Source: Bradyrhizobium sp. AZCC 2176
GTDB lineage: Bacteria; Pseudomonadota; Alphaproteobacteria; Rhizobiales; Xanthobacteraceae
Direction: 5' to 3'
DNA: 64,000 bases
Assembly: GCF_036924645.1 (NCBI RefSeq)
Contig: NZ_JAZHRX010000001.1
Span: 6,971,501-7,035,500 of the forward strand
Position numbers and translations under genes: made by a program. Positions 17,820 to 24,180 of this stretch are shown one piece after another. The first letter of the stretch is position 1; every line of letters begins with the position of its first letter. Below the pieces are notes generated by a model that was not told the DNA's origin, did not search any database, and saw nothing but the letters and a program-made list of their open reading frames with translations.

Positions 17820-19730
17820 CTACCGCTCGACAAACGCGCGATTCATCTGCTCGGTGATCGGCTTCAGCAAATAGTTCAGCATGGTCCGGCTGCCGGTCTG
17901 CATGAAGACCTCGGCCGGCATGCCCGGCACGAGTTGCAGGCCACCCAGCCGGCGGCGCTCATCATCGGGCAACACGACCCTCACCGTGAAATAGGATGCA
18001 TTGGTCTGTGGATCATGGCTGGTATCGGCCGACACCAGGGACACCGCGCCGGCGAGCTGCGGCGTCACCCGCTGGTTAAAGGCTGAGAAGCGGACGAATG
18101 CCTTTTGGCCCGGACGAACCTGATCGATGTCCTGCGGCTGCAACCTTGCTTCGACAAGCAGGTCGTCCGTATCGGGCACGATTTCCATGATGACGTCGCC
18201 GGGGCGGATGACCCCGCCGATGGTATGCGCGGAAAGCTTGTGGATCACGCCCGACGTCGGCGCCCGCATTTCGATGCGGTCGAGCAGGTCCCGCGCGGCG
18301 ACGCCGCGCTCGACGAGTTCGGCTTCCTTGCCCTGCGTCTCGCCGAGTTCCTTGACCACCTCGGTGCGAAAATCCTGATCGAGGCGCGCGATCTGAAGCT
18401 GTGTCTCGCCGACCTTTGATTTCGTCTCGGCGATCGAGGATATCAATTGCCCGCGCTCGCCTTCGATCCGCGCGGTCTCGCGCTGTAACGTCGTGAGACG
18501 CGTCAGCGGCACCAGTCGCTTGTCGTAGAGGTCCTGGACCCCCACGAGCTCGCCTGCAATCAGCTCAAGCTGCCTGGCCTTGGAATCCACCTGGGCCTCC
18601 AGCCCCGAAGTCTCCTGGCCGAGCTGCCCGATCTTGCTCTGCAAGACGTCCCTTTGGCTGTTGCGCCCTTCGGATCGGGCCTTGAACAGTGAAACCTCCG
18701 ACGCCAGCAGACTTCGGATGCTGTCCTCGCCGGTGCGCGCCTTCAATGCGGCGGGGAATTCCGGCTGGCTCAGGCCGTCGCGCTCGGCGGTCAATCGCGC
18801 GATCCGCGCGCGCAACTCGTCGAGCTGCTTGCTCACGATCTGAAGGCTGGCCTGGGCCTGGGTGGCGTCGAGCCGCAACAGCAAATCGCCGGCGGCCACG
18901 TGCGCGCCGTTGGCGACCTTGATCTCCGCAACGACCCCGCCGGTGGGATGCTGGACGGTCTTGACATTGGATTGCACGACGAGATTTCCGGGCACCACGA
19001 CGGCGCCTGCAAGCGGCACGAGCGCAAGCCAGCCGCCGCCCAACACGGTGGCTAGGAGCAGAATTCGAAGGCCGGTCCGCAACTCATTTTCAAACGACCA
19101 TCCGGCGTGCTTCATTAAACCAGCATCGGCCGCATCATTCGCCGGGTCGTGAGCGTTGCGATTGATCAGGAAGGAACCCGCAGCGATCAGGCCGGCGCTG
19201 CCACTTCGAACCAGGCGCCCGACGGTCGTTGCCGGCGCGGGCGGACCCGAAAGCTTGAGCTGCGGATTCGGGAGAACCATCGATTGGTGCGCGGCATCCG
19301 GCGCCGGGATTGCCGGCCCGGGTTTTGTCAAATCCATCGGCAACGGACGGCACGGTACGAGGCTCGGACTCGGATGGCGCGGCGTGACGTGAGCCTCGTC
19401 CGGCGGCTCTATCCTGCGCTCGGCAGGCGCGGCCGACTTGAATCCGACCTGTTCAAGACAGAAGTCGATAACCCGCCCCATCCTGCTCTTTTTGCGGCGC
19501 TTGGGCCGGCGGGCTTGGGCACGAATGGGACGCGCCGAGGCATCAGGCGCCGTGCGCCGCGCCCGCTGTGCGTGCTGATGACCGCGAATCTCGCTGTCAA
19601 AGGCGCGGCTCAAACGTTGCAATTCGAGTATCAGGGCTGCGCCCTGCGATCCGAACGCGTCCGGGTTTGGATCGCGGGCCGCGCGCTGCACGGCGTCATT
19701 GGAATCTGGCGCGTTCTGCCTGGGCCGCAT
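17820..19730 (-). CDS. HlyD-family type I secretion adaptor with long N-terminal extension
   Basis: Periplasmic adaptor (membrane fusion protein) of a type I secretion system. One TM helix (LRTGLRILLLATVLGGGWLALVPLAG) is followed by the barrel-sandwich half GGVVAEIKVANGAHVAAGDLLLRLD, a long coiled-coil hairpin, then RAPTSGVIHKL and the conserved C-terminal GLQLVPGMPAEVFMQTGSRT of the PrtE/LapC group. Unusually, about 210 residues precede the TM segment; they are Arg/Pro-rich and look disordered. The ATG at 19730 follows the ABC stop by two bases (a TTG at 19736 is also possible). The internal Met shortly before the TM segment is an alternative start that would remove the extension. No TolC-like outer-membrane gene is in the window. 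Confidence 0.88.
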   Translation of the reverse strand: MRPRQNAPDSNDAVQRAARDPNPDAFGSQGAALILELQRLSRAFDSEIRGHQHAQRARRTAPDASARPIRAQARRPKRRKKSRMGRVIDFCLEQVGFKSAAPAERRIEPPDEAHVTPRHPSPSLVPCRPLPMDLTKPGPAIPAPDAAHQSMVLPNPQLKLSGPPAPATTVGRLVRSGSAGLIAAGSFLINRNAHDPANDAADAGLMKHAGWSFENELRTGLRILLLATVLGGGWLALVPLAGAVVVPGNLVVQSNVKTVQHPTGGVVAEIKVANGAHVAAGDLLLRLDATQAQASLQIVSKQLDELRARIARLTAERDGLSQPEFPAALKARTGEDSIRSLLASEVSLFKARSEGRNSQRDVLQSKIGQLGQETSGLEAQVDSKARQLELIAGELVGVQDLYDKRLVPLTRLTTLQRETARIEGERGQLISSIAETKSKVGETQLQIARLDQDFRTEVVKELGETQGKEAELVERGVAARDLLDRIEMRAPTSGVIHKLSAHTIGGVIRPGDVIMEIVPDTDDLLVEARLQPQDIDQVRPGQKAFVRFSAFNQRVTPQLAGAVSLVSADTSHDPQTNASYFTVRVVLPDDERRRLGGLQLVPGMPAEVFMQTGSRTMLNYLLKPITEQMNRAFVER

Positions 19731-19732
19731 GT

Positions 19733-21586
19733 TCAAGCGCTCCCCGCAACTGCCGCGCGACGGACCCGAGGCGCGGTCCGTATGGCCGCCGCTTGTGCAG
19801 CAGTCGCTGCCCGGCCCGGCGCGTTTCGAACGCGCGCAAATACCTCTTCGCTTGGACCGAACGCGATCGCCCTGCCCTCGTAGAGCACCATCGCCATATT
19901 CAGTGAGGCAAGCGCGCTGGGGCGGTGCGACACGACGATGACGATGCTTCCGTTGCTGCGCAGGGTCTGAATGGCACGCCCGAGGGAATTCTCGCCGTCG
20001 GTGTCGAGGTTCGCATTCGGCTCATCGAGCACGACCAGAAACGGGTCGCCGAAGACGGCTCGCGCAAGGCCGATCCGCTGGCGCTGGCCTGCGGAGAGCG
20101 ACATGCCGCCCTGGCCGATGCGCGTCGCGTATCCCTGCGGCAGGCGCAGGATGATGTCGTGCACGCCGGCAATCTGCGCGGCCTTCAGGATCGCATCCGA
20201 TGTCGCCCCCGCGTCGAACCGGCAGATGTTTTCGGCCACCGTACCCTCGAGCAGTGCCACGTCCTGAGGCAGGTATCCGATATGGCGCCCCAAATCCTCG
20301 TTGCGCCATTGATCGATGGCCGCTCCGTCGAGCCGCACCACGCCATCCTTGGCCGGCCAGATTCCGACCAGCGCCCTCGACAGCGAGGTCTTGCCGGAAG
20401 CGCTGGCGCCGAGCAGCACGAGCCCCATGCCGGCCTTCAGCGAAAACGAAATGTTGGACACGATGGGCTTGTCCATGCCTGGCGCTGCGACGGAGAGATC
20501 CTCTACCGAGAGCTCGCGGCAAGGACGCGGCAACGCCACCGGCGGTGCAGCCGGCTTTGCCGTCACCTTGCAGATGTCGCGCAGGCGGACGAGCCCCTGG
20601 CGCGCGGTGACAAGCTGCTTCCAGTTGCCGAGCGCAATTTCAACCGGCGCCAACGCACGGCCCATCATGATCGACGAAGCGATCATGATGCCGCCCGAGG
20701 CCTTGTCGGCCACCACAAGATAGGCGCCAATCCCCAGCATGCCCGACTGCAGCACGTAGCGCAGGAGTTTGGCGCCCGATCCGAGGTTGGCATATAGATC
20801 GGTGGCCCGGATATTTTCGCGCAGATACCGCTCATTGGCCTGCGACCAGCGCGCCGTGAATCGATCAAGCATGCCAAGCGCCCGGATGACCTCGGCGTTG
20901 CGCTGGGTGGTATCCGCCAGCACCTGCCGGCGGGCGCTTGAGTCCATCGCGGCCTTGGCCGCGCCGCGCGACAGCCGTTCTGTCAGCAACGTCATCGCGA
21001 TGATCGCAATCGTTCCGAGCAGCGCCGTGGCGCCGATTGCGGGATGAAACAGAAAGAGCGCGATCAGAAAAATGGGAATCCAGGGCATGTCCAGAAACGC
21101 CGTCGGTCCCATCCCCGACATGAAGGTACGAATCTGGTCGAGATCGCGCAGCGGCTGCTGCAGCAACACCGGGTTCGCGCCACGGAGTGGCAGCGTGGCA
21201 AGCGCGGTATGGATCGATTCCTGCATGCCGACATCGAACATGGTTGCCACCCGGCACAGCATGCGCGTGCGCAACGCCTCGAAATATGCCTGGATCAGGT
21301 AAGCGAGCAGCACCATCAGCGAGAGGCCGAGCAAGGTCGCGATGTTGCGGCTCGGAATCACCCGGTCATAAACCTGCAGCATGTAGAGAGAGCCTGCTAG
21401 CATCAGGATGTTCACCACACCGCTGAAGCCTGCGATGCCGACCATTCGTCGCGCGCTTTCGCGCAGGCCGACAGCCACAGGATCATCGCCCGCCACCGTG
21501 GGCAGCGGATTCCGCAAGCTGAAGGATGGCATTATTCGCATGCGATCTTGAGCAACACTCGGTTGCATCCCCCCTTGATCGATCAA
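19733..21586 (-). CDS. type I secretion ABC transporter (permease-ATPase, PrtD family)
   Basis: A 617-residue half-transporter with six TM helices in the first 320 residues and a nucleotide-binding domain after. Walker A GASASGKTS, signature LSAGQRQRIGLARA, Walker B FLVVLDEPNANLD and the switch His in VVSHRPSA are all intact, so it should hydrolyse ATP. There is no N-terminal C39 or C39-like peptidase domain, as in PrtD/AprD exporters of proteins with uncleaved C-terminal signals. It is directly followed by the HlyD adaptor and preceded, 332 bp upstream, by the GH114-like gene, the obvious candidate substrate. Confidence 0.94.
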   Translation of the reverse strand: MIDQGGMQPSVAQDRMRIMPSFSLRNPLPTVAGDDPVAVGLRESARRMVGIAGFSGVVNILMLAGSLYMLQVYDRVIPSRNIATLLGLSLMVLLAYLIQAYFEALRTRMLCRVATMFDVGMQESIHTALATLPLRGANPVLLQQPLRDLDQIRTFMSGMGPTAFLDMPWIPIFLIALFLFHPAIGATALLGTIAIIAMTLLTERLSRGAAKAAMDSSARRQVLADTTQRNAEVIRALGMLDRFTARWSQANERYLRENIRATDLYANLGSGAKLLRYVLQSGMLGIGAYLVVADKASGGIMIASSIMMGRALAPVEIALGNWKQLVTARQGLVRLRDICKVTAKPAAPPVALPRPCRELSVEDLSVAAPGMDKPIVSNISFSLKAGMGLVLLGASASGKTSLSRALVGIWPAKDGVVRLDGAAIDQWRNEDLGRHIGYLPQDVALLEGTVAENICRFDAGATSDAILKAAQIAGVHDIILRLPQGYATRIGQGGMSLSAGQRQRIGLARAVFGDPFLVVLDEPNANLDTDGENSLGRAIQTLRSNGSIVIVVSHRPSALASLNMAMVLYEGRAIAFGPSEEVFARVRNAPGRAATAAQAAAIRTAPRVRRAAVAGSA

Positions 21587-21766
21587 AGTTCCATGAATTC
21601 CAAGAATGCAACTTCCAAGAATGCGACCGCTGAAAACTTACGCAGGCGATTCCGAAACCAGACGACCTTCCGGCGGTCAGGCCGCCGTTGATTTGGTCGT
21701 CACATGCGCGCGCTGGAATTTGCGCGTCTCAATCATGGCTCGGTGATGAGAGCCATCGGAAAACAT

Positions 21767-21812
21767 CCTGTCTGAGGGGTTGGGCTCTGACACCTCAATC
21801 CTCTCAGACAGG
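21767..21812 (-). promoter_or_regulatory. long hairpin upstream of the type I exporter gene
   Basis: Arms CCTGTCTGAG (21767-21776) and CTCAGACAGG (21803-21812) are complementary, and pairing extends inward through G-U and G-C pairs towards the loop. It lies 180 bp before the ABC start in the putative operon, where it could lower exporter expression relative to the upstream gene. Confidence 0.55.
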
Positions 21813-21831
21813 AGGTGGCCGTCACCACCTC
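21812..21831 (-). promoter_or_regulatory. second hairpin in the same spacer
   Basis: A perfect 7-bp stem GAGGTGG (21812-21818) and CCACCTC (21825-21831) with a 6-base loop, touching the previous hairpin by one base. The two structures may compete or stack. Confidence 0.45.
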
Positions 21832-21873
21832 AACCGCCTTGCCTGCGGCTTCGTTCAATTCTCAATCCCGAAG

Positions 21874-21911
21874 GGCTGTCTTCTGACAAGTGTTGTCGGA
21901 AGACAGACCCT
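21874..21911 (-). terminator. strong hairpin directly after the GH114-like gene
   Basis: Long stem with arms 21874-21890 and 21894-21911, nearly fully complementary with one G-U pair and one bulge, and a 3-base loop. It begins 8 bp after the stop at 21919. There is no long T-run, so partial termination with read-through to the exporter genes is plausible. Confidence 0.65.
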
Positions 21912-21918
21912 CCGACTC

Positions 21919-23127
21919 CTAGTGGTGCCAGAAGTTCGCGTAATAGTCGTGTTTGGTCGTGCTGTGCCAGTCGCAGCTCTGCTGGAAGCTGTCCGACACG
22001 GTCGTCGTTGATTGGGTAGCCGACTGGTACCAGTCCTGTTTGGTCATGTGGTGCCAGTCGTAGCTCGATCCGCCTGAAGTCGAGTCCGGCGCGGTCGTCG
22101 TCGATGTACCGCCCGTAGTCGTAGATGTACCACTCGTGGTCCCGGACGTACCGCTCGTGGTTGTGCTCGTCGTATCCGAGCCCGTGGCAGTCGTCGTGTC
22201 CGATCCAGTCGGGGTCGTCGTCGTACCGGTGGTTGTCGTCGTACCGGTGGTGGTCGTCCCAGCATCGGTGGTCGACGTCGTTGGTGTGGTGGTGGTGGTG
22301 GTGGTGGTGGTCGTCGATCCGCTTGTTTCGAGTGGATGCACCGTCTGCCCCGGTAGAACGCCGTCGAGGTCGATGCCGTTCAGATCGAGATGCCCGATAT
22401 AGGACCCGACGCCGTCATGCGCGGCCTGCGCGTGAACGTCATCGATCTTGGTCGCACCATCCACATATTCGATGACCACGACAGGCTTGCCGGCGTCGGT
22501 GGCCTTGTGGAGATTTTCGAGCGTGTATTGCGTCTCGGCGATCGGCTGCTTTTTGCCGCTGTCCGTGTAGTACACCTCCTCTTTGAACATCCCGTCGATC
22601 GCACTGACATAGTCGGGATGATCGAGCAGTTCTTCGGCCCCGTTGACCCAGACCTTGAAGTCCGGATCCTTCGACGTCGCGTACTGCTTCAGCGACTCGA
22701 TGAGATTGACCATGTCCTGTTCGGAATTCGAATCGTGGCTCGTCGCCCACGATGAGTAATATTCGTCAACCACGTCGAAATAGATGCCGTCGTAACCCGC
22801 AGTGATCATCTTATCGATGGCTTGTTGCGCGACAGCCTTCCATTCCGGCGTCCAAAAGGCGACCTGAAAATTGCCGGCCCAGTCCGGGTCCTCGGGACCG
22901 ACGACCGACTTTGACAGCGAGCTGAAATAGTCCCTGTAATTCTCGGCCTCGCCGAGATTGAAATAGCCGAGCACCTCGCTGCCGCCGCTCTTCATGAGCT
23001 GGACCTGCGCAGCGGTGAACGCAACGCCGGAATCATTCTCGGTTTCGACCACCTGAACGTCGAACGGCGCGGTTGCGATTTGTTGCGGATTGACACCTTG
23101 CAGAACATAATCTGCCGTAATCGTCAT
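21919..23127 (-). CDS. GH114-like extracellular glycosidase with Thr-rich linker, likely type I secretion substrate
   Basis: A 402-residue protein. Residues about 8-265 resemble the endo-alpha-1,4-polygalactosaminidase (GH114/TM1410-like) TIM barrel: VLGYFNLGEAENYRDYF, then AGYDGIYFDVVDEYYSSW with acidic residues where catalytic ones are expected, then EEVYYTD and VVVIEYVD. Residues 268-355 are an almost pure Thr/Ser/Gly linker. Residues 357-367 and 386-396 repeat the motif DWHxxTKxDxY. The N-terminus has no signal peptide, and there are no RTX nonapeptides. The ATG at 23127 has GGAGAGAAG upstream. Position ahead of the exporter genes suggests export by them. Family assignment is by eye; catalytic activity is inferred. 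Confidence 0.72.
   Translation of the reverse strand: MTITADYVLQGVNPQQIATAPFDVQVVETENDSGVAFTAAQVQLMKSGGSEVLGYFNLGEAENYRDYFSSLSKSVVGPEDPDWAGNFQVAFWTPEWKAVAQQAIDKMITAGYDGIYFDVVDEYYSSWATSHDSNSEQDMVNLIESLKQYATSKDPDFKVWVNGAEELLDHPDYVSAIDGMFKEEVYYTDSGKKQPIAETQYTLENLHKATDAGKPVVVIEYVDGATKIDDVHAQAAHDGVGSYIGHLDLNGIDLDGVLPGQTVHPLETSGSTTTTTTTTTTPTTSTTDAGTTTTGTTTTTGTTTTPTGSDTTTATGSDTTSTTTSGTSGTTSGTSTTTGGTSTTTAPDSTSGGSSYDWHHMTKQDWYQSATQSTTTVSDSFQQSCDWHSTTKHDYYANFWHH
22287..22310. repeat. (TGG)8 trinucleotide microsatellite
   Basis: Eight perfect TGG units encoding consecutive Thr codons (ACC) in the linker of the GH114-like protein. The surrounding 22100-22320 is a looser array of Thr/Ser/Gly codons. Slippage would keep frame and change linker length. 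Confidence 0.9.
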
Positions 23128-23291
23128 GAGCTTCTCTCCATCCATCATTGTCCCCACGGTCTGGCTGAGCAAAAAACGCGGCTGAATGAAGGTCGCTTCA
23201 AGATGAGATGAAGGCCATGTCACGGCGGTGACGTTGAAATTGTTGCAGTATCAATCAGTGCTTGCGGAGCCCCGCCGCGGTTGTCGGCGAT

Positions 23292-23462
23292 GCAGAGGGT
23301 CGTCACCGCGTTCGTCGACTCAAAACCAAGGACCATCAGATGGCCCTTCGTGTTGAGCGCTGGCAACGTCGTCACGCGTTGAGCAGGATCGATATCGGCC
23401 CATATCAAACGCGCGGTCTCCGTCTTGCGAGAGCCGGCAAAAAGCAGCCTGCGAAGCAAGTC
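23292..23462 (-). pseudogene. remnant of a tyrosine recombinase (integrase)
   Basis: Translated on the minus strand, this segment reads LLRRLLFAGSRKTETARLIWADIDP followed by a TLPA-type strand. This is the typical environment of the first catalytic Arg (G-x-R-x-x-E) in phage-type integrases. The C-terminal box with His-x-x-Arg and the Tyr are not found in continuation, and the N-terminal domain is missing, so it is a fragment. The rest of 23128-24180 holds only frames I cannot assign, including a 95-residue one at 23623-23910. The block looks like decayed mobile DNA next to the secretion locus. Confidence 0.5.
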
Positions 23463-24180
23463 ACGCTGCACGCTACCCGGATCATCTCTGCTCATCTCTT
23501 GGAAGCGCACGCGCAGCTTCCCGCGGGCACGCGGCTCGTGCGGCGCTACTTTGCAAACCACTGCTCTTCGTATTGCGGCTGTTGAACGGGGACATGGTGG
23601 CAGAGTGACACCGCTCCTGGCGTTACAACCTTCGAGTTGACCAAGCCGATGTTGCCACCGTGTGTCTGCTTTTTCGCCCAACTTTGTTCGGGAGATCACG
23701 TCGCGCGATGGAATCATTGCCCCTGGTTTCGGCCAGGAACTGAACACCGAAGGCCTTGACGAGCGTGCCGAAGTTCGCCTTCTCGCCGCCACGCTGTGGC
23801 ATCCGCAACTTGTCCACGAACGCTCGGATCAACTTCTCGACCGGCATGCCGTCGCCCTTGAGGGTGTAGCGGCGCCAACGCGGCAATCTCCGCCTGTGGG
23901 GCCGGCACACGGCGCTTCAGCCGATGCACTTTAATGGCTCGAAAGCGCTTCACGGCAAAAAAGCCACGAGATCAATAACCTGTCGCGTGAGGTTCAACGC
24001 CGAAGGGAGGCGCGGCTTGGTTAATTTAACGTTAACAACACAAAGCGGCGCCTGAAGCCGCCAAATCGCGTCCCCGGCATGGACGCTGCAAAGCCTGTCC
24101 TGCACAACGAACCAGGGAAGGCGCGTGCGCAAAAGCGGGACAGATGTGTCCCGCCAAGGCAAGCCGGGGAAAAGGTAAGC

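Follow-up and report, generated by a model that had tools for sequence, protein, structure and literature searches.

Does a bacterium that builds a Pel-type matrix also export a tool that cuts it? This question is raised, and made testable, by three genes of Bradyrhizobium sp. AZCC 2176, which encode a glycosidase-like enzyme, a PrtD-type exporter and a HlyD-type adaptor. They lie in this order, all on the minus strand, within a stretch of 64,000 nucleotides (hereafter the window), which corresponds to C1:6971501-7035500 of the host genome (G000; 7.15 Mb, one contig). The original prediction, made from the letters of the window, had described the three genes as a dedicated type I secretion system (T1SS) with a GH114-like glycosidase as its probable cargo, and their positions and common strand were confirmed (Table 1). 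We consider it reasonably probable that the enzyme is an endo-galactosaminidase which is exported by this dedicated set and trims or disperses the Pel-like matrix of its own producer. The finding provides a glycosidase family on which little work exists with a delivery route and a probable natural substrate.

Enzyme family and active site

A profile search of the enzyme gene (21919-23127), in which a longer upstream start was used, matched PF03537 (Glyco_hydro_114) at E=1.2e-28, with a score of 100 bits where the cut-off is 27. The GH114-like character named in the original prediction was thus upheld at the level of the Pfam profile, while GH114 as a family name had to be given up. PF03537 spans both GH114 and GH191, which were separated in 2025 (PMC12054363, available in part). 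Among solved structures, those closest in sequence are Env-GH191 (9ep5, E=2.8e-31) and the TM1410 entries (TmGH191, E=4.5e-29 to 1.9e-28), and the weaker matches comprise PelA (GH166, E=4e-4) and the GH114 enzyme Ega3, which reached only E=0.017. The enzyme falls outside TIGR01370 (MJ1477/TM1410), its score of 162.4 bits being under the curated cut-off of 181.25.

The predicted fold gives the same order of relatives. In a Foldseek search with an AlphaFold2 (AF2) model (25 sequences; mean predicted local distance difference test, pLDDT, of 63.6), Env-GH191 took rank 1, TmGH191 ranks 2-11, PelA ranks 12 and 13, and Ega3 rank 14. Most of residues 1-262 exceed a pLDDT of 50 in the model, the loops at 60-64 and 83-86 being weak, and residues 263-402 are below 50. 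The model contains the modified (beta/alpha)8 barrel of the GH191 type with the catalytic Asp/Glu and the loop Trp, the loop of Trp83 being modelled at low confidence. The catalytic pair of TmGH191, Asp156 and Glu225, and its loop residue Trp121 (same partly available source) align to Asp118, Glu183 and Trp83 of the window enzyme; Asp118 is conserved in 24 of 24 ungapped alignment rows and Glu183 in 25 of 25. Judged by its closest sequences and fold, and with the catalytic pair conserved, the enzyme is GH191-like, and it is probably an endo-galactosaminidase. The net charge of the catalytic domain (-29) would suit a cationic polymer as substrate, and Env-GH191 is described to cut Pel (PMC12054363, available part).

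Proposed export set, C-terminal tail and sister system

The exporter and adaptor were identified as predicted. The first reached 670.6 bits with TIGR01842 (type_I_sec_PrtD; cut-off 510.15) and the second 372 bits with TIGR01843 (type_I_hlyD; cut-off 208.65), so that an ATP-binding cassette (ABC) protein of the PrtD subfamily and a HlyD adaptor, both over their cut-offs, represent the PrtD/HlyD pair of a T1SS. No TolC-like partner was found among the ten window proteins scanned, to which the search was confined.

PF03537 was found in 5 of 265 Bradyrhizobium genomes, and the long class, to which the window enzyme belongs, in four of them (G000, G264, G411 and G415). The enzyme, PrtD and HlyD genes keep one order and one strand in 4/4 of these genomes (G264 and L017, being one locus, were counted once). 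G264 encodes a two-module enzyme, and G415 has one single-module and one two-module enzyme gene. Two broader links were tried and rejected. A general association of PF03537 with exporters is not borne out by three genomes of the order sample (G012, G015 and G062), whose GH domains are distant and which show only weaker ABC-ATPase matches in the 12-16 kb fetched, nor by 12 Methylobacterium loci without a neighbouring exporter. The second PF03537 class (about 300-330 amino acids, aa) was dismissed as partner of the window's exporter, as it is located in the pel locus in all four Bradyrhizobium genomes.

The absence of a signal peptide also appears to hold, in that no N-terminal leader is evident by inspection of the sequence. 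The protein opens directly at its catalytic domain, the first predicted strand comprising residues 4-8 of the AF2 model, whereas TmGH191 is made with an N-terminal signal peptide (PMC12054363, available part). The start codon, an ATG at 23127, is consistent with the start positions of relatives: 33 of 41 homologues begin at, or a few residues from, the first barrel strand, and seven are N-terminally incomplete (by eye).

At the other end, the barrel is followed by a Thr/Ser-rich extension of 140 residues, which closes in a tail that contains two DWHxxTKxDxY-type motifs and terminates in ...ANFWHH; a variant of this ending, ...SNFWHH, is found on the enzymes of G411 and G415. At least four His or Trp residues among the last 12 were counted in 17/41 homologues. 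The corresponding count among control open reading frames (ORFs) was 6/189, of which five are cargo genes of the window or sister system (see below) and one is PelF. The controls, of at least 200 aa and in part spurious, were picked mechanically from 15 fetched Bradyrhizobium loci as well as from the window; the G264 cargo gene stands outside them, a longer overlapping ORF having taken its place. In the Pfam scan the window enzyme had neither RTX repeats (PF00353) nor a Ra/cadherin-like domain. RTX repeats (PF00353, in some cases with PF08548) replace the His/Trp tail on 10 of the 41 relatives and occur also on one Methylobacterium relative.

Other GH191 relatives end in ...QDLHHHYAHMW and ...HQHYGHLWG, which are near the tail of a protein from a sister system. 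The host genome encodes eight PrtD-type ABC proteins over the cut-off, the window copy included, and one of these, at C1:3503932 (L075), is 79.7% identical to the window PrtD. Its divergent neighbour (L075:4859-6364), the sister cargo, is a protein of 501 aa that matches no Pfam or NCBIfam family and ends in ...ELAHHLHHMWG. Relatives of it were found in 32 of 146 Bradyrhizobium genomes. Among the 30 loci fetched, which are the best matches and include the host copy, a H..W[G/A] tail closes 29 (the exception being L178), and the sister PrtD lies at most 1.5 kb from the cargo in 25. Identity to the host copy averages 0.80 over the last 10 residues, 0.39 over the preceding 50 and 0.58 overall. 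The family (L075, L169-L198) is uncharacterised and varies in length from 359 to 942 aa, with the His/Trp tail strongly conserved beside a long-HlyD exporter.

The adaptors of the two systems share a further feature. The HlyD core is preceded by 218 residues in the window protein and by 259 in the sister protein, and by 15-87 in the six other host HlyD proteins, so that among the eight compared an N-terminal extension of about 200 residues occurs only in these two systems. The His/Trp tail and the long HlyD extension thus seem to go with each other, possibly as a signal and the part that reads it. It is quite possible, though we would not count on it, that they mark a distinct T1SS branch, in which the HlyD extension reads a short His/Trp tail in place of an RTX-type signal, and which is dedicated, in the window's case, to the release of a Pel-cutting enzyme, letting pel-bearing rhizobia remodel or leave their own biofilm. 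The tail would apparently be an unusual, non-RTX export tail, in that no histidine-rich type I signal was found named among the papers listed in the literature search, and such signals are not known to be common. If it is the export signal, type I export would have in it a compact tag of a kind other than RTX. The enzyme relatives represent natural tail swaps (His/Trp, RTX, Hint_2, DUF5648), which are useful for probing exporter recognition. One Methylobacterium genome, G485 (L157-L159), has five leaderless GH191-class copies, and the three that were read carry two RTX tails and one DUF5648.

The set might alternatively serve another protein, the GH191 enzyme being a cytoplasmic or otherwise exported neighbour. 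The seven further PrtD-type proteins of the host, the Methylobacterium relatives without a neighbouring exporter and the upstream ORF 23220-23792, which has no family, would be compatible with this. We nevertheless regard it as very unlikely, as no alternative likely cargo was found among the scanned neighbours, and duplicated enzyme genes and modules have been retained within the cluster. The 4/4 linkage, the lack of an evident leader, the sister-like tail and the RTX repeats on relatives are our reasons for taking the glycosidase, as did the original prediction, to be the probable cargo.

Co-occurrence with Pel-type loci

A second PF03537 protein of the host (C1:5144534-5145457), with a leader-like N-terminus by inspection, is encoded inside a Pel-type locus. 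This locus includes PelF (NF038011, 386.5 bits; cut-off 100), PelG (PF16933, 261.8 bits), an NTP transferase and two epimerase-type genes; further genes in it matched no family over the cut-off. PelG was over the cut-off in 4 of 265 Bradyrhizobium genomes, which are the same four that contain the exporter-enzyme set; G332 gave a partial match under the cut-off. In the order sample, PelG passed the cut-off only in G000 of 199 genomes, and the match in G077 was under it. A few Bradyrhizobium genomes are thereby seen to contain a Pel-type locus. No description of one was found in the literature searched, whose coverage excluded subscription papers, and the main text of PMC7112194 does not mention Bradyrhizobium.

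The pattern recurs in Methylobacterium. Of 111 genomes of this genus, 15 have PelG and 10 the leaderless enzyme class, and each of these 10 is one of the 15, the class being defined as a match from query residue 3 or lower with at least 53% identity, a definition set after viewing the table. In the first look, at most 14 candidates per genome were scored. With a looser class (any GH-domain match from residue 16 or lower), the enzyme is counted in 15 genomes, of which 14 have PelG, the exception being G525. Enzyme and PelG lie 4.4-4.5 kb apart on one contig in G474, G482 and G576. In an Acetobacteraceae metagenome-assembled genome (MAG; L019), a leaderless protein in which a GH191-type domain is joined to Hint_2 (L019:7977-9770) adjoins the pel genes in convergent orientation. 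When any GH191 relative is counted, PelG is over the cut-off in 8 of 15 genomes, and the other seven hold enzymes 27-32% identical to that of the window. The hypergeometric values obtained, 5e-9 and 6e-11, ignore phylogeny and are not usable as probabilities.

The original prediction left the substrate open between the organism's own and a neighbour's matrix. We favour the own matrix because of the co-occurrence with the host's own Pel-type locus. The same export route could also be directed at a foreign target, either fungal galactosaminogalactan or the Pel of a neighbour, for competition or feeding, and the related PelA hydrolase is known to work across kingdoms (PMC12054363, available part). 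Moreover, amino-sugar-type genes lie near the set in G411 (L033:2602-6829, where Pfam recognised a BadF-type kinase, an amidohydrolase and a pair of SIS-domain proteins), and similar ORFs do so in G415 (L032). However, the ten proteins of the window that were scanned around the set included no amino-sugar enzyme, and a purely offensive enzyme would not be expected solely in pel-bearing genomes, as observed for 4/4 Bradyrhizobium and 10/10 Methylobacterium carriers. A foreign target is therefore plausible, if unlikely.

Another possibility is that the enzyme and pel genes occur together without any functional link, either through common descent or because a single mobile element brought in both. 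The carriers are few, G411 and G415 are close (rpoB 97.8%), and the enzyme and pel loci of G264 share one 294-kb contig. Against this, a 50-gene rpoB tree (the 30 best matches with G000 and 20 hand-picked genes), read without support values, places the four carriers in three separate lineages. In an rpoB DNA comparison to G000, in which 228 of the 265 genomes were scored, 78 are nearer to G000 than G264 is, and none of the 78 has PelG over the cut-off. Furthermore, the enzyme and pel loci are separated by about 160 kb to more than 1.5 Mb, and the association reappears in Methylobacterium and in the Acetobacteraceae MAG. This makes common descent or joint transfer quite unlikely as the whole explanation.

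Several observations weigh against an exported enzyme that acts on its producer's own Pel. TmGH191 was neither active on nor bound to fungal galactosaminogalactan (PMC12054363, available part), so activity of the window enzyme cannot be assumed. One homologue of the 41 (P0010) starts in a leader-like manner and lacks a tail. A protein search with the tail alone (residues 350-402) gave no candidate, and the tail claim thus rests on the sister system and the GH191 relatives; in the window tail, ...ANFWHH, the residues also follow another order than in that of the sister cargo, ...HHLHHMWG. The conserved linkage, which held for the Bradyrhizobium carriers, was not seen outside this genus, as no PrtD/HlyD was found near the enzyme in 12 Methylobacterium loci from 10 genomes or in L019 (0/13; three of the Methylobacterium loci are near contig ends, and two further G485 copies were left out). 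The dedicated exporter is consequently a Bradyrhizobium trait as far as seen. Five of the 15 PelG-bearing Methylobacterium genomes are without the enzyme class. Finally, the carriers in Bradyrhizobium number only four, and their pel locus does not adjoin the exporter (about 160 kb away in G264 and at least 1.5 Mb in the other three), so that in this genus the link to Pel rests on co-occurrence.

Some further observations concern the pel locus itself. In the host (L079:2682-7469; L039 = C1:5132681-5151594) it is headed by an RTX protein of 1595 aa with its own PrtD and HlyD, which is 76% identical in G296 and partially matched in G264, G411, G415 and a Paracoccus MAG (L029). This RTX protein is a candidate for a type I-exported matrix protein associated with Pel. 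In G296, the RTX-PrtD-HlyD part is present along with a PF03537 protein; neither PelF nor PelG was found in the 19 kb fetched, and its genome gave no PelG match and no long-class enzyme. Transposase-like ORFs (by eye) lie beside this locus (L034:3395-7475).

Proposed mechanism, known systems and gene layout

We suggest that the enzyme is made in the cytoplasm, that PrtD and HlyD recognise its His/Trp-rich C-terminal tail, and that it is exported in one step through a TolC-like outer-membrane partner assumed to be encoded elsewhere. It would fold outside the cell. There, its acidic barrel might bind a cationic, partly deacetylated alpha-1,4-N-acetylgalactosamine polymer of the Pel type and cleave the chains internally, with the Asp as nucleophile and the Glu as acid/base. 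The substrate would most likely be the Pel-like matrix of the cell itself, and the outcome chain trimming or cell dispersal. The periplasmic, PelA-type step would be left to the separate PF03537 hydrolase of the pel locus with its leader-like start.

PrsD of the rhizobial PrsDE system is, we presume, likewise a PrtD-type exporter. The original prediction held that a GH114-type enzyme paired with a T1SS is not a standard combination. In agreement with this, no report of it was found in the literature searched, with the coverage given above. Rhizobia are nevertheless known to send out, by type I secretion, a glycanase acting on their own polysaccharide. In Rhizobium leguminosarum, PlyA, PlyB and PlyC are such glycanases, and PlyA and PlyB, exported via PrsDE, are needed for a structured biofilm (PMC9298526, available in part). 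According to the same text, PrsDE is one exporter for many proteins, whereas in the window exporter and enzyme are adjacent; PlyA and PlyB are beta-1,4-glycanases with a cadherin-like domain, in contrast to the GH191-like window enzyme, which has no RTX or cadherin-like Pfam domain. The set may therefore be viewed, by analogy, as a variant of the PrsDE-Ply arrangement that is tied to a Pel-type matrix by co-occurrence.

Env-GH191 and TmGH191, the closest proteins by sequence and fold, share the catalytic Asp/Glu and the loop Trp; the available part of PMC12054363 mentions neither an export tail nor an exporter for them. The PelA hydrolase domain is alike in fold and presumed substrate, with weak sequence similarity, and acts on Pel ahead of Pel export (PMC12022489, available in part), whereas the window enzyme is proposed to act outside the cell. 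The endo-galactosaminidases of the Ega3/GH114 type are alike in fold, and their sequence match is marginal.

Table 1. Features of the exporter-enzyme set, with positions in the window
Feature	Position	Strand	Basis
Cargo gene, 402 aa, GH191-like (PF03537 superfamily)	21919..23127	-	PF03537; nearest PDB chains by sequence and fold
Catalytic barrel domain, residues 1-262	22342..23127	-	Mapping to TmGH191; AF2 model
Low-complexity Thr/Ser/Gly linker, residues 263-352	22072..22341	-	Composition of 263-402; pLDDT <50 over 263-402
His/Trp/Asp-rich C-terminal tail, residues 353-402, proposed export signal	21922..22071	-	Similar tails on other GH191 cargos and on the sister-system cargo
Possible attenuator, a stem-loop in the gap that separates the cargo gene from the exporter gene	21767..21812	-	Folding z-scores
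PrtD-type ABC exporter (permease + ATPase), 617 aa	19733..21586	-	TIGR01842, 670.6 bits
HlyD-type membrane-fusion adaptor, 638 aa	17820..19736	-	TIGR01843, 372 bits over residues 219-638
HlyD N-terminal extension, 218 residues	19083..19736	-	Residues ahead of the TIGR01843 core

Upstream of the enzyme gene, the segment 23220-23910 contains overlapping ORFs that resemble remnants, a piece of which resembles a tyrosine recombinase by eye. ORF 23220-23792, considered as a possible mobile-element remnant, matched no family in Pfam, NCBIfam or PHROGs.

The PrtD and HlyD genes share 4 bases, and the enzyme and PrtD genes are separated by a gap of 332 bases, whose mean column identity across the loci is 55%. 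The stem-loop of this gap has a z-score of -3.8, calculated for an 80-base stretch picked around it, and the gap also folds a stem-loop in the three other Bradyrhizobium loci (z-scores of -2.8 to -5.1, for stretches picked in the same way). This structure may dampen the expression of the exporter relative to that of the cargo.

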